From Pseudomonadota bacterium (GTDB taxonomy: Bacteria > Pseudomonadota > Gammaproteobacteria > Burkholderiales > Burkholderiaceae_C): a stretch of 64,000 nt of DNA. The notes below the pieces were generated by a model. That model had not been told where the DNA came from, ran no database searches, and saw only the letters and a list, made by a program, of their open reading frames with translations. The stretch spans positions 1 to 64,000 of the forward strand of contig JAKBBP010000006.1 of the NCBI GenBank assembly GCA_021808445.1, in the 5' to 3' direction. This document shows, one piece after another, positions 52,947 to 61,392 of the stretch. Made by a program: the position numbers and the translations under genes. The first letter of the stretch is position 1, and every line of letters begins with the position of its first letter.

Positions 52947-53861
52947 ATGAACCTCAAGCAACTCGAATATTTCGTGCGCGTCGCCGAGGTGGGCAGTTTC
53001 AGCAAGGCGGCGGTCCTGCTGGACATCGCCCAGCCGGCGCTGAGCCGTCAGGTTCGCCTGCTGGAGACCGACTTGCGCGCCGTGCTGCTGCAGCGCACCG
53101 GGCGAGGCGTGGTGCTCACCGAGGCGGGAAAACGCCTGTTCGAGCATGCGGCGGGTATCCTGCAACTCGTCGCGCAGGCTCGCGAGGACCTGGAGGCCGG
53201 GCGCGACGAACCGACGGGGCGCATCATCATCGGCCTGCCCCCGAGCATGGGGCGGGTGCTCACGCTGCCCCTGGTGCAGGGTTTCGAGTCGAGGCTGCCC
53301 AAGGCCCGCCTGGCGATCGTGGAGGGGCTGTCGGCCCACATCACGGAGTGGATCTCCACCGGGCGCGTGGACATCGGCCTGGTGCTGAACCCGCAAAGCC
53401 AGGAGGCCATCGAGGTGAGCCCGGTGTTCGAACAGGAACTGTGCCTGGTCAGCCCCGCGGGAAACGGCCCGCCCGAGCATGAAGTGCCTTTCAACACCCT
53501 GGGGTCCTACCCCCTGGTGATCCCCGAGCGGACCCATGCGATTCGCCGGATGATCGAAAACCAGGCGGCCCTGTCCCACATCAAGCTGCAGATCGCCTGG
53601 GAAGTCTCCGGGGTGCAGTCCATCCTGGACCTGGTGCGCTGCGGCCACGGCCATGCCGTGCTGGCACGCGGCGCGGTGCTGGCCAGCGGCCAGCGCGAGG
53701 CTTTCCGCGTCCGGGCGCTGACCCAGCCCAGCCTGTACAGCCGGCTGTTCCTGGCCACCTCCACGAGCAAGCCCAGCACGCCGCTGCTGCGTCATGCCGT
53801 GGATCTGTTGCTGCAACTGGCGCGCGAGCATGCGCGGGCGGCCGACCATATCAATTCGTGA
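52947..53861 (+). CDS. LysR-family regulator of the lig operon (probable)
   Basis: This 304-residue protein has a helix-turn-helix at residues about 3-60 (LEYFVRVAEVGSFSKAA; ALSRQVRLLE) and an effector domain (about 90-295). It lies directly before the protocatechuate operon on the same strand. Its stop codon falls inside a 30-bp element that also occurs upstream of the uptake genes. That makes it the best candidate for the regulator of both; the ligand may be protocatechuate or a pathway intermediate. Confidence 0.85.
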   Translation: MNLKQLEYFVRVAEVGSFSKAAVLLDIAQPALSRQVRLLETDLRAVLLQRTGRGVVLTEAGKRLFEHAAGILQLVAQAREDLEAGRDEPTGRIIIGLPPSMGRVLTLPLVQGFESRLPKARLAIVEGLSAHITEWISTGRVDIGLVLNPQSQEAIEVSPVFEQELCLVSPAGNGPPEHEVPFNTLGSYPLVIPERTHAIRRMIENQAALSHIKLQIAWEVSGVQSILDLVRCGHGHAVLARGAVLASGQREAFRVRALTQPSLYSRLFLATSTSKPSTPLLRHAVDLLLQLAREHARAADHINS

Positions 53862-53877
53862 TAGCTGCTAGCGCGGC
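53848..53877 (+). promoter_or_regulatory. Putative LysR operator upstream of ligJ
   Basis: The dyad TATCA-N5-TGATA at 53849-53863 is part of a 30-bp element matching 61363-61392 at 23 positions (consensus ATATCRAWWCGYGATARCTG, then TAGCGC-GC). It overlaps the LysR stop codon and ends 103 bases before the ligJ start. LysR boxes usually have such imperfect dyads near -65. Confidence 0.65.
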
Positions 53878-53980
53878 GGGCAGCCTTGGCCGGCGCATGG
53901 GGGCTTGCCATAATCGCCAAAGACTCGGGCTGCCATGAGCTTCGGCCCTGCGCGCCGAGAAATTTCCTGGAGACCTCCGC

Positions 53981-55006
53981 ATGATCATCGACTGTCACGG
54001 CCACTACACCACCGCGCCCAAGGCGCTGGAGCAATGGCGCAAGGCGCAGATCGACCACCTTGCCACGCCGGAGCTCGGCCCCAAGGTGGCCGACCTGCGC
54101 ATCAGCGACGATGAGTTGCGCGAAACCATCGAGAACAATCAGCTGCGCCTGATGCGCGAGCGCGGCAGCGACCTGACCATTTTCTCGCCGCGTGCCAGTT
54201 TCATGGCGCATCACATCGGCGACTTCCACACCAGCTCCACGTGGGCGGGCATCTGCAACGAGCTCTGCCATCGCGTCTCCCAGCTGTTTCCCGAGCATTT
54301 CATCGGCGCCGCCATGCTGCCCCAGTCGCCGGGCGTGGACCCGCGCAGCTGCATTCCCGAGCTCGAGCGTTGCGTGCGGGACTACGGCTTCGTGGGGATC
54401 AACCTCAACCCCGATCCCTCGGGCGGGCACTGGAAGGAGCCGCCGCTGACCGATCGCTGGTGGTACCCGATCTACGAGAAGATGGTGGAGTACGACATCC
54501 CGGCCATGGTGCACGTCAGCACCAGTTGCAATGCCTGTTTCCACACCACGGGCGCGCACTACCTGAACGCCGACACCACGGCCTTCATGCAGTGCCTCAC
54601 CGGAGACCTGTTCAAGGATTTCCCGACCCTGAAATTCGTGATTCCCCACGGTGGCGGCGCGGTTCCCTACCACTGGGGGCGCTTCCGCGGCCTGGCGCAG
54701 GAACTGAAGAAGCCCGTGCTGCAGGAACACCTGCTGGGCAACATCTTCTTCGACACCTGCGTCTACCACCAGCCGGGCATCGACTTGCTGACCCGCGTGA
54801 TCCCCGTGGACAACATCCTGTTCGCCTCGGAGATGATCGGCGCCGTGCGCGGCATCGATCCGCTGACCGGACACCACTACGACGACACCCGGCGCTACAT
54901 CGAGGCCGCGGCCATCGACCCGCAGCAGCGCGCGAAGATCTACGAACACAACGCTCGGCGCGTATACCCGCGCCTGGATGCCGCGCTCAAGGCGCGCGGC
55001 CTTTGA
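53981..55006 (+). CDS. ligJ: 4-oxalomesaconate hydratase
   Basis: This 341-residue amidohydrolase-superfamily enzyme matches the length and pattern of LigJ. It has [14 protein letters not shown] at the start (metal His pair), [31 protein letters not shown] and [14 protein letters not shown]. It hydrates 4-oxalomesaconate to 4-carboxy-4-hydroxy-2-oxoadipate in the protocatechuate 4,5-cleavage pathway. It is the first gene of the operon, followed by ligK after 16 bases. The putative LysR operator lies upstream. Confidence 0.9.
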
Positions 55007-59869: not shown

Positions 59870-61238
59870 GCAGGCGCCGGACCGGGCCGTTGCGCAGTCC
59901 CGCGGGAACGCGCAGGCCCCGCTGGCGCAACAGCAGCAGGCCGGCGGTGGCCAGCAGCATGCCGGCCAGCGCGATGACATGGATCGCCTGGTTCCCGAAC
60001 ACCGCGCGGTTCAAGGGACCGATGAGCAGCCCGCACAGGATCTGCGGCACCGTGATCGTGATGTTGAAGATGCCCAGGCAGGCCCCCATGTTCCGGGGCG
60101 GAACCTCGGCCGCCACGATGGCATAGGGAAGGGTGTTGAGGCTTCCGGAGAACAGCCCGAGCCCGAGCATCGCGCCATACACGGCCCGCATGTCGTGCAG
60201 GAAGGGCATGCCGACCAGGGTCGCGGCTCCGGCCAGCAGGGAGATCGCGTGTACCCGCTCGGGGTCGAAGCGCTCGGCCAGCCACGGCAGCGCCAGGGTG
60301 TAGAGCACGCCCACCGACTGGTAGATGGCGAAACAGATCCCCGACTGGATCACCCCCTTGGCGAGCAGGGCCTGGTGCTCCGGATGGACGGAAACGTCGG
60401 CGCCCGGAGGCAGCCCGAACATGTGCTGCGCCAGCGCCAGGCCGAAGTAGATCCATACGCTGAACAACCCCGCCCAGGTCAGCACCTGCACCAGGAACAG
60501 GCGGCGGATCACCGGAGGTGTCTGGCGAATGTTCCTGAATAGCTCGCGCGCCAGACGCGCGCAGAAGTCCGGGAATGCGCTGGATGCTTCCGGGGATGGC
60601 GAGGCCATGCGGTCCTTGTCCCGAAGCTGCCGGACTACCGGCGAGGCCGTGTGAAACAGGAGCAGGGCGCCGAGGAGCAGGGAAACCTTCAGGACCACGG
60701 GGATCTTGAATCCGGCCTCGCCCGGGTGGGCGAAGACGTGGGTCGCATGCATCAGCCAGGGAATGGCTCCTGCCAGCACTGCACCCAGCGAACCGAAGAG
60801 CGCCTGCCATGCAAAAGCCTTGGATTTCTGCCGATTGGGTGTGATATCCCCGATCAGCGAGCGCAGGCCCTCGGTGGCGCAATTGATGCTGCAACTCAGC
60901 AGGAGCACGAGCGTCGAGGTCAGCCAGAGGGCTTCCGAGAAGGCCAGCAGAGCCAGACTCGCGCAGCTCAGCATCGCCCCTGCGTAGATGTAGGGCATTC
61001 TCTTGCCGAAGCGCGTGTCCAGCAGGTCGCTGGCCTGGCCCAGCAGGGGTTGCACGATCAGTCCGGCGAGCGGTGGGATCAGCCACAGCCAGCTGACCTG
61101 CTGATCGGAGGCGCCCAGGAACTTGAACAGCCCGCTGGCGTTGTTCACCTCGAAGGTGCCGGCGGCCTGCAAACCCAGGTTTGCGAGCGATAAGTAGAAG
61201 AGTTGTCGATAGCTCAGGAGTGTCTGCGGATGTCCCAT
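59709..61238 (-). CDS. MFS transporter, GPH/SLC45-like, with antisense tail
   Basis: This is a 509-residue frame. Residues about 10-445 form twelve helices of an MFS protein with the SLC45/GPH pattern TRFGKRMPYIYAG after helix 2 and AAEVPPRN near the end. The last 50 or so residues are Arg/Pro-rich and lie antisense within ligC, unlike the family, so the normal stop was probably lost. ATG at 61238 (MGHPQTLL) fits the first helix. The substrate is unknown. It diverges from the outer-membrane channel gene and is convergent with ligC. Confidence 0.75.
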   Translation of the reverse strand: MGHPQTLLSYRQLFYLSLANLGLQAAGTFEVNNASGLFKFLGASDQQVSWLWLIPPLAGLIVQPLLGQASDLLDTRFGKRMPYIYAGAMLSCASLALLAFSEALWLTSTLVLLLSCSINCATEGLRSLIGDITPNRQKSKAFAWQALFGSLGAVLAGAIPWLMHATHVFAHPGEAGFKIPVVLKVSLLLGALLLFHTASPVVRQLRDKDRMASPSPEASSAFPDFCARLARELFRNIRQTPPVIRRLFLVQVLTWAGLFSVWIYFGLALAQHMFGLPPGADVSVHPEHQALLAKGVIQSGICFAIYQSVGVLYTLALPWLAERFDPERVHAISLLAGAATLVGMPFLHDMRAVYGAMLGLGLFSGSLNTLPYAIVAAEVPPRNMGACLGIFNITITVPQILCGLLIGPLNRAVFGNQAIHVIALAGMLLATAGLLLLRQRGLRVPAGLRNGPVRRLLNPARTVPSPGDPAPGSREAPWRRWIRARGPRGWRRRTRGPAIRCHSSKRPPC

Positions 61239-61362
61239 GGCTTGCGGGCCTCTGCCCCTGCATGCCCGGCCTGTCGAGGTGCCAGGCCGGGTGTCCATGC
61301 TACGCAGGGCGCCAAAGCCGTGGATGCGCAGGGGCCAAAGCCCGCGCTCCGGGACAACCCTC

Positions 61363-61392
61363 ATATCGAAACGCGATAACTGATAGCGCAGC
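61363..61392 (+). promoter_or_regulatory. Second putative LysR operator, before the channel gene
   Basis: TATCG-N5-CGATA at 61364-61378 lies within a 30-bp element matching 53848-53877 at 23 positions. It ends 107 bases before ATG 61500, nearly the same distance as the ligJ copy from its start. It also lies 125 bases from the divergent MFS start, so it could control both directions. Confidence 0.65.

Follow-up and report, generated by a model that had tools for sequence, protein, structure and literature searches.

A conserved operator-promoter unit predicted to place protocatechuate 4,5-cleavage and uptake genes of a Thiomonas-type bacterium under one LysR-type regulator

The 64,000-nucleotide window analysed here (positions 1 to 64,000 of contig JAKBBP010000006.1, our C22, from the 3.38-Mb draft genome GCA_021808445.1 of a Thiomonas-type bacterium) carries two matching 30-bp elements, one upstream of ligJ in a protocatechuate 4,5-cleavage operon and the other upstream of a gene for an outer-membrane channel-type protein. 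Comparison across genomes indicates that both are very probably operators of a LysR-type regulator, the product of 52947-53861, which would co-activate the cleavage operon and the uptake genes. In the proposed mechanism, a LysR tetramer would occupy a conserved box, AT..C-N8-ATA-N-CT..TA (which holds a T-N11-A core), at about −65. Aided by an aromatic co-inducer, either protocatechuate or an intermediate of the pathway, it would contact RNA polymerase at −35/−10. Two targets would thereby be switched on: the ligJ-K-DUF1932-I-A-B-C operon and an operon of the channel, an ATP-binding cassette (ABC) binding protein, and LivGFHM. The regulator gene and the two putative operator-promoter units are located as follows.

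52947-53861, plus strand: LysR-type regulator of 304 amino acids (Pfam HTH_1 and LysR_substrate), predicted binder of both elements
53848-53877, plus strand: candidate operator copy 1, upstream of ligJ and overlapping the LysR stop codon
53886-53891, plus strand: −35-like hexamer TTGGCC, 17 bases before the −10 box; CTTGG is kept in most site 1 copies of the genus
53909-53914, plus strand: −10 box CATAAT on the copy 1 side; predicted transcription start near 53921, dyad centre (53856) at about −65
61363-61392, plus strand: candidate operator copy 2, upstream of the channel gene
61402-61407, plus strand: −35-like hexamer ACGACA, 16 bases before the −10 box; CTACGACAA is kept in most site 2 copies of the genus
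61424-61429, plus strand: −10 box CATAAT on the copy 2 side; predicted transcription start near 61436, dyad centre (61371) at about −65

The anatomy of the pair is as the initial annotation had described it. The copies agree at 23 of 30 positions, while other 30-mers in the window agree with either at no more than 18; both hold the dyad TATCR-N5-YGATA and continue into CTG-N-TAGCGC-N-GC; they end 103 and 107 bases before the ATG codons at 53981 and 61500; and the LysR stop codon (TGA, 53859-53861) lies inside copy 1. A feature that had gone unmentioned is the CATAAT hexamer, which stands at an identical distance from both copies. This hexamer and the spacing of the −35-like sequences before it give the predicted starts listed above and hence the placement of the dyad centres, which is relative to a predicted and not a mapped start. 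LysR-type recognition sites usually sit at about −65. The T-N11-A box is formed by T2 and A14 of the element, 11 bases apart and both fixed letters of the family pattern described below.

The bare match of the pair is suggestive and moderately exceeds chance (p of ∼0.003): 5 of 2,000 dinucleotide-shuffled pairs of the two upstream regions reached 23/30, as did 8 of 1,944 random real stretches of the window compared with the ligJ upstream region. Since the bare pair goes no further than this, conservation decides. When the genome was scanned, the operator plus the −10 box at fixed spacing was present, with up to 3 mismatches allowed, at exactly 2 places in 3,380,475 bases, namely, the two sites (backwards control, 0). 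Because the two sites and related sequences were the source of this composite pattern, other genomes must supply the independent support. A third match in the genome (C60, 3 mismatches) was rejected as a site: it lies inside a 786-amino-acid open reading frame (ORF), is without the key letters (TGTC, GACA), and was missed by the composite search.

The initial annotation had staked the regulon on conservation of the element among related genomes, and the element does accompany the LysR gene both within the genus and outside it. Among 28 genomes of the genus, including the window's own, 21 are LysR positive (E of ≤1e-60) and 22 contain the element (pattern with ≤2 mismatches). It is present in 21/21 LysR-positive genomes versus 1/7 LysR-negative genomes, the single case (G017) having 2 mismatches and no −10 box (2/6 letters). 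In G001, the region with a 66% ligJ homologue (L193) contains neither a LysR gene nor the element. The tally was taken from G handles only, some genomes occurring under both G and L labels (e.g., G002:C122 and L034), and duplicate sequences are shown once in the genus site alignment.

That site 1 goes with LysR is in part a trivial result of its overlap with the end of the gene; the independent part is the second site. It was found in 18 of the 21 LysR-positive genomes (17 by pattern scan, plus G023, a contig of which starts inside one). The channel gene follows it in 13 (G000, G002, G005, G006, G007, G009, G012, G014, G015, G018, G023, G026, and G027; only channel residues 130 to 334 match in G012, and in G027 the contig breaks just inside the channel gene). 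The binding-protein gene follows directly in 3 (G022, G024, and G025), and a Porin_4 gene and then the binding-protein gene follow in 2 (G021 and G020; porin 97% identical). Upstream of eleven binding-protein paralogues of 67 to 73% identity the family pattern was not found (0/11); the best agreement with the window consensus there was 15 to 19 of 27 letters, the 19/27 resemblance lying upstream of a G002 paralogue. Two LysR-lig-channel sets (C96 and C181) are present in G015, a draft with 6% contamination, and represent either a duplication or two strains binned together.

Among LysR relatives more widely, positions −40 to +150 relative to the LysR stop codon were scored at 79 of 80 loci (L085 was dropped, as the locus ends), using a consensus from the window's two sites only and 300 random stretches per locus as background, those near the LysR end being discarded. 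Leaving out 13 loci with LysR identity of ≥70% gave 66 distant loci (LysR 56 to 69% identical), which are mutually related and are not 66 independent trials. The element is present at the LysR 3′ end in 44/66 at a p of ≤0.01 and in 53/66 at a p of ≤0.05. The letters most often kept are A1, T2, C5, ATA (14 to 16), CT (18 and 19), and TA (22 and 23), and the element occurs in several versions: ATATC..GATA in Thiomonas, ATAAC..GATA in Rhodocyclales-type loci, and ATGCC..GATA or GGCAT in Burkholderiaceae-type and Bradyrhizobium/Rhodopseudomonas loci. The −10-like boxes at the same spacing are commonly CAGAAT or CACAAT.

A family pattern, drawn from the same 80 loci that it was counted in, occurs at 92 places in their 1.33 Mb (backwards control, 2), and 84 of the 92 have at least 4/6 letters of TATAAT spaced at 59 to 61 (backwards control, 0). 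Sixty places are at the LysR 3′ end and 32 are elsewhere; of the latter, 21 lie before transporter genes and 5 before a first gene of pathway type. By downstream gene, 7 of the 32 are in Thiomonas loci and precede channel or binding-protein genes (the L037 contig ends shortly after the gene begins), and 4 precede ABC binding proteins (L049, L061, L064, and L113, the first three by Pfam). Ten precede a DctQ-type gene of a tripartite ATP-independent periplasmic (TRAP) transporter divergent from LysR (three by Pfam; L059 matches over the first 87 residues only), all on the minus strand (L050:9982, L056:9981, L057:9982, L058:9983, L059:7639, L060:9982, L066:9982, L076:7109, L081:9984, and L087:9985). 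Five precede a gene whose start resembles that of the pathway operon's SBP_bac_11 gene (one by Pfam; four with ligJ next, the fifth, L102, being masked shortly after the gene start), and five precede a gene for a thiamine pyrophosphate (TPP)-dependent enzyme (two by Pfam; plus strand, L056:1732, L058:1683, L059:2362, L060:1569, and L081:1856). For the last, L063, no gene was found downstream. The copies that diverge from the LysR start and point at the DctQ gene could also serve autoregulation.

The genes proposed to be controlled, and their neighbours, are arranged in the order LysR-ligJ-ligK-DUF1932-ligI-ligA-ligB-ligC, all in one direction, followed by a divergent major facilitator superfamily (MFS) gene and then by the channel and binding-protein genes.

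53981-55006, plus strand: amidohydrolase (Pfam Amidohydro_2), which we take from gene order and general knowledge to be the ligJ-type 4-oxalomesaconate hydratase
55023-55715, plus strand: ligK-type 4-carboxy-4-hydroxy-2-oxoadipate aldolase (TIGR02798, 394.6 bits; cut-off, 304.5)
55721-56680, plus strand: NAD-binding DUF1932 protein inside the pathway operon
56685-57647, plus strand: ligI-type amidohydrolase (Pfam Amidohydro_2) in the position of the pyrone dicarboxylate hydrolase, named from gene order
57637-58050, plus strand: ligA, protocatechuate 4,5-dioxygenase alpha subunit (TIGR02792, 216.6 bits; cut-off, 108.6)
58050-58910, plus strand: ligB, class III extradiol dioxygenase beta subunit (NF009903, 578 bits; cut-off, 317)
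58907-59869, plus strand: ligC-type Gfo/Idh/MocA dehydrogenase, named from gene order
59709-61238, minus strand: MFS transporter (MFS_1/MFS_2), divergent from the channel gene, start codon assumed; the Pfam search covered the part 59821-61238
61500-62504, plus strand: outer-membrane channel-type protein, Phenol_MetA_deg family, with a predicted membrane location
62569-63897, plus strand: ABC transporter binding protein, Peripla_BP_6 family (nearest solved chain 4q6w; E of 3.7e-14)
63890-64000, plus strand: 5′ part of a LivG-type ABC ATPase gene, named from sequence and gene order

With LigA, LigB, and LigK above curated cut-offs, 53981-59869 is assigned as a protocatechuate 4,5-cleavage operon; the names ligJ, ligI, and ligC rest on family and gene order. 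Both domains of the regulator are clear (PF00126, 1.3e-21; PF03466, 1.7e-33), and it is 95 to 98% identical to the LysR proteins of Thiomonas records L036 and L038 and of proteobacterial metagenome-assembled genomes. Past the window end, ORFs read as LivF, LivH, and LivM from sequence and order follow LivG.

Several observations weigh against control of both gene sets by this regulator. First, three LysR-positive genomes of the genus have no second site: G010 (99% complete), which has no close binding protein, and G003 and G004, both drafts (86 and 84% complete). A further channel and binding-protein copy, lacking the element and following a different ORF, is present in each of G024 and G027. 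Second, 13 of the 66 distant loci are without the element at the LysR 3′ end at a p of ≤0.05 (L052 and L079 have it further on), and the −10 box reaches 5/6 letters of TATAAT in none of the 66, 4/6 being common. Finally, part of the conservation of copy 1 could stem from coding constraint, since it shares bases with LysR codons; the related genomes are not independent; and the similarity of the pair, taken alone, is only suggestive.

Such points leave some room, albeit little, for another transcription factor whose site controls both promoters, with the LysR gene a mere neighbour. This is unlikely. It would account for the distant loci in which the LysR end lacks the element, but the element follows LysR within the genus and in relatives down to 56% identity, the T-N11-A box lies at about −65 as for LysR-type activators, and in Rhodocyclales-type loci copies stand divergent from the LysR start. 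We give marginally less credence still to an arrangement in which LysR controls the pathway via copy 1 while copy 2 serves the divergent MFS gene as well, or even mainly, leaving the link to uptake loose. Copy 2 does lie in the intergenic region between the MFS and channel genes, ∼125 bases from the assumed MFS start, and LysR-type sites can act on both sides. Against this, the MFS gene is missing or ∼1.2 kb away in several relatives in which the element and the channel or binding-protein genes remain, and the fixed-spacing −10 box is on the channel side. Chance similarity, or retention of copy 1 merely as codons of the LysR C terminus (HINS-stop), is very improbable and was rejected despite the few shuffles that reach 23/30 and the overlap with the stop codon, as copy 2 is non-coding and has counterparts in the 18 LysR-positive genomes (the window's own included), the element in many distant relatives is partly or wholly past the LysR stop, and the operator with its −10 box is confined to the two places.

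Control of degradation and import by the one LysR regulator, as the initial annotation had predicted, is retained for the lig operon and the channel and binding-protein genes, which matching sites precede, but not for the MFS gene, which had been tied to the same substrate. Besides its loose attachment to the element, the MFS protein resembles sucrose/GPH carriers and not PcaK (19.7 bits with the PcaK model; cut-off, 770), and it was rejected as a member of the regulon.

The predicted co-regulation suggests that the cargo of the channel and ABC system is an aromatic acid. Support for protocatechuate itself as the cargo is no more than indirect, given the element-free channel and binding-protein copies in two genomes and the adjoining vanillate/ferulate-like ORFs. 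The window's binding protein is far from solved aromatic-acid binders, 4q6w being the nearest, and its AlphaFold model has a mean predicted local distance difference test (pLDDT) score of 58.8, so the Foldseek list for it shows only the fold class. The element-controlled binding protein of L061 is close to 4ey3/4eyg/4eyk (9.4e-138), and the title of 4ey3 names p-hydroxybenzoic acid.

LysR-type control of protocatechuate 4,5-cleavage is already worked out for the sphingomonad LigR (Sphingobium lignivorans SYK-6 and Novosphingobium aromaticivorans), a LysR-type activator of these genes, as is proposed for the window's regulator. According to the LigR literature, it uses protocatechuate and gallate (PMC6888825), a single regulator serves two target operons, its footprints lie at −48 to −85, its motif is TT-N-GC-N6-TTAT, and LigR with its flanking operons occurs mostly in Sphingomonadales (PMC12710314). 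The predicted dyad position in the window, about −65, falls inside that footprint range, and the Rhodocyclales-type element, read on the other strand, fits the LigR motif by eye at 7/8 letters. The window copies fit at 5 and 6 of 8 letters, also by eye. The window LysR gene lies upstream of ligJ in the same direction, whereas ligR lies between ligKUI and ligJABC; and the window protein is only 26% identical to a Sphingobium xenophagum plasmid LysR that is called LigR by gene order. Given this identity and the differing gene order, orthology with LigR was rejected and the window LysR was not filed as LigR; identity with PcaQ was likewise rejected (TIGR02424, 96.8 bits; cut-off, 303.8).

Closer relatives were met in plasmid searches with LysR and LigB, from which four regions were used. 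On plasmids of Diaphorobacter sp. MNS-0 and Paraburkholderia caribensis, the pathway genes of the window recur next to a LysR gene whose product is 47% identical. In Diaphorobacter, the DNA between the genes matches the family pattern and has CACAAT at the spacing seen in the window; in P. caribensis, TATCTGATAGTG resembles the 3′ half of the element. Unlike in the window, LysR is divergent in both, agreement with the window consensus is only 17/27 in both, and the P. caribensis sequence falls outside the family pattern, only the 3′ half being kept. A Sphaerotilus plasmid region (L172) has no LysR gene or element beside the genes.

We lean, with distinctly less assurance than for the regulon itself, towards a broader interpretation: that this LysR clade is separate from LigR and that its operator-promoter unit has stayed constant among the protocatechuate 4,5-cleavage loci of beta- and alphaproteobacteria, whereas the uptake system beneath it has been exchanged. 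The exchanged systems would be, in Thiomonas, one ABC type together with a channel or porin; in several Rhodocyclales-type loci, TRAP transporters; and elsewhere another ABC type, that of L061 being close to solved hydroxybenzoate binders. Control through such a site is ordinary in kind; the wider point is the same operator before different transporter types in different lineages. If this is correct, the operator is a conserved socket for interchangeable transporters and a means of assigning transporters to the pathway. A comparable joining of aromatic-acid degradation with ABC and TRAP uptake under one regulator is described for CouR of Rhodopseudomonas palustris, which controls CouPSTU/TarPQM uptake; unlike the window's regulator, CouR is of the MarR type, responds to p-coumaroyl-CoA, and serves a different pathway (PMC3610893).

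In the literature searched, coverage of which was partial and makes absence weak evidence, no operator of this non-LigR clade was met. The word “transport” had no match in the searchable text of the LigR study (PMC12710314), and the same kind of partial text of a betaproteobacterial aromatic-regulon study (PMC6449761) gave no match for LigR, pmd, ligB, or Thiomonas. For a Vibrio natriegens cluster, the accessible text suspects a nearby LysR gene without giving a site (PMC13253662). A conserved, scannable operator would allow uptake genes, enzymes (DUF1932 and the TPP-dependent enzyme), and regulators to be assigned to a lignin-related pathway across many genomes, and the element pair provides a precisely defined fragment for use in gel shifts and in biosensor promoters.

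Outside the genus, matches at 2 to 3 mismatches were, at a glance and among the matches listed, about as frequent as in the backwards control; the exceptions are a few genomes with repeats ending in TTGATAGCTG. Nothing here rests on any of these matches. In a sample of 398 genomes of the phylum, a stricter family pattern had 1 exact match, the 3-kb locus of which (L170) has no lig or LysR match. Three genomes of the same family (G037, G042, and G031) hold many dispersed matches with 2 to 3 mismatches of the form CTC-N5-TTGATAGCTGNTNGCG, an apparent repeat family seemingly unrelated to the regulon.

Some further observations concern the neighbouring genes. The element-free channel and binding-protein copies (G024:C207, L184; G027:C154, L197) are preceded by an ORF that reads like a cyclase-family protein, and the pair thus appears to be wired elsewhere also. 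Downstream of the window, as read from ORFs only, the stretch at ∼67300-74700 of the same contig (G000:C22, L159) appears to encode a MarR regulator, a vanillate-demethylase-like oxygenase and reductase, a GntR regulator, and a ferulate-type enoyl-CoA hydratase and acyl-CoA synthetase, which would extend the cluster into a lignin-monomer island; scans of the genome found no element there. The TPP-dependent enzyme of the Rhodocyclales-type loci, whose gene follows an element with a −10-like box, is ∼700 amino acids long and reads like an indolepyruvate:ferredoxin oxidoreductase. The DUF1932/NAD-binding gene (55721-56680) is kept between ligK and ligI in many relatives.

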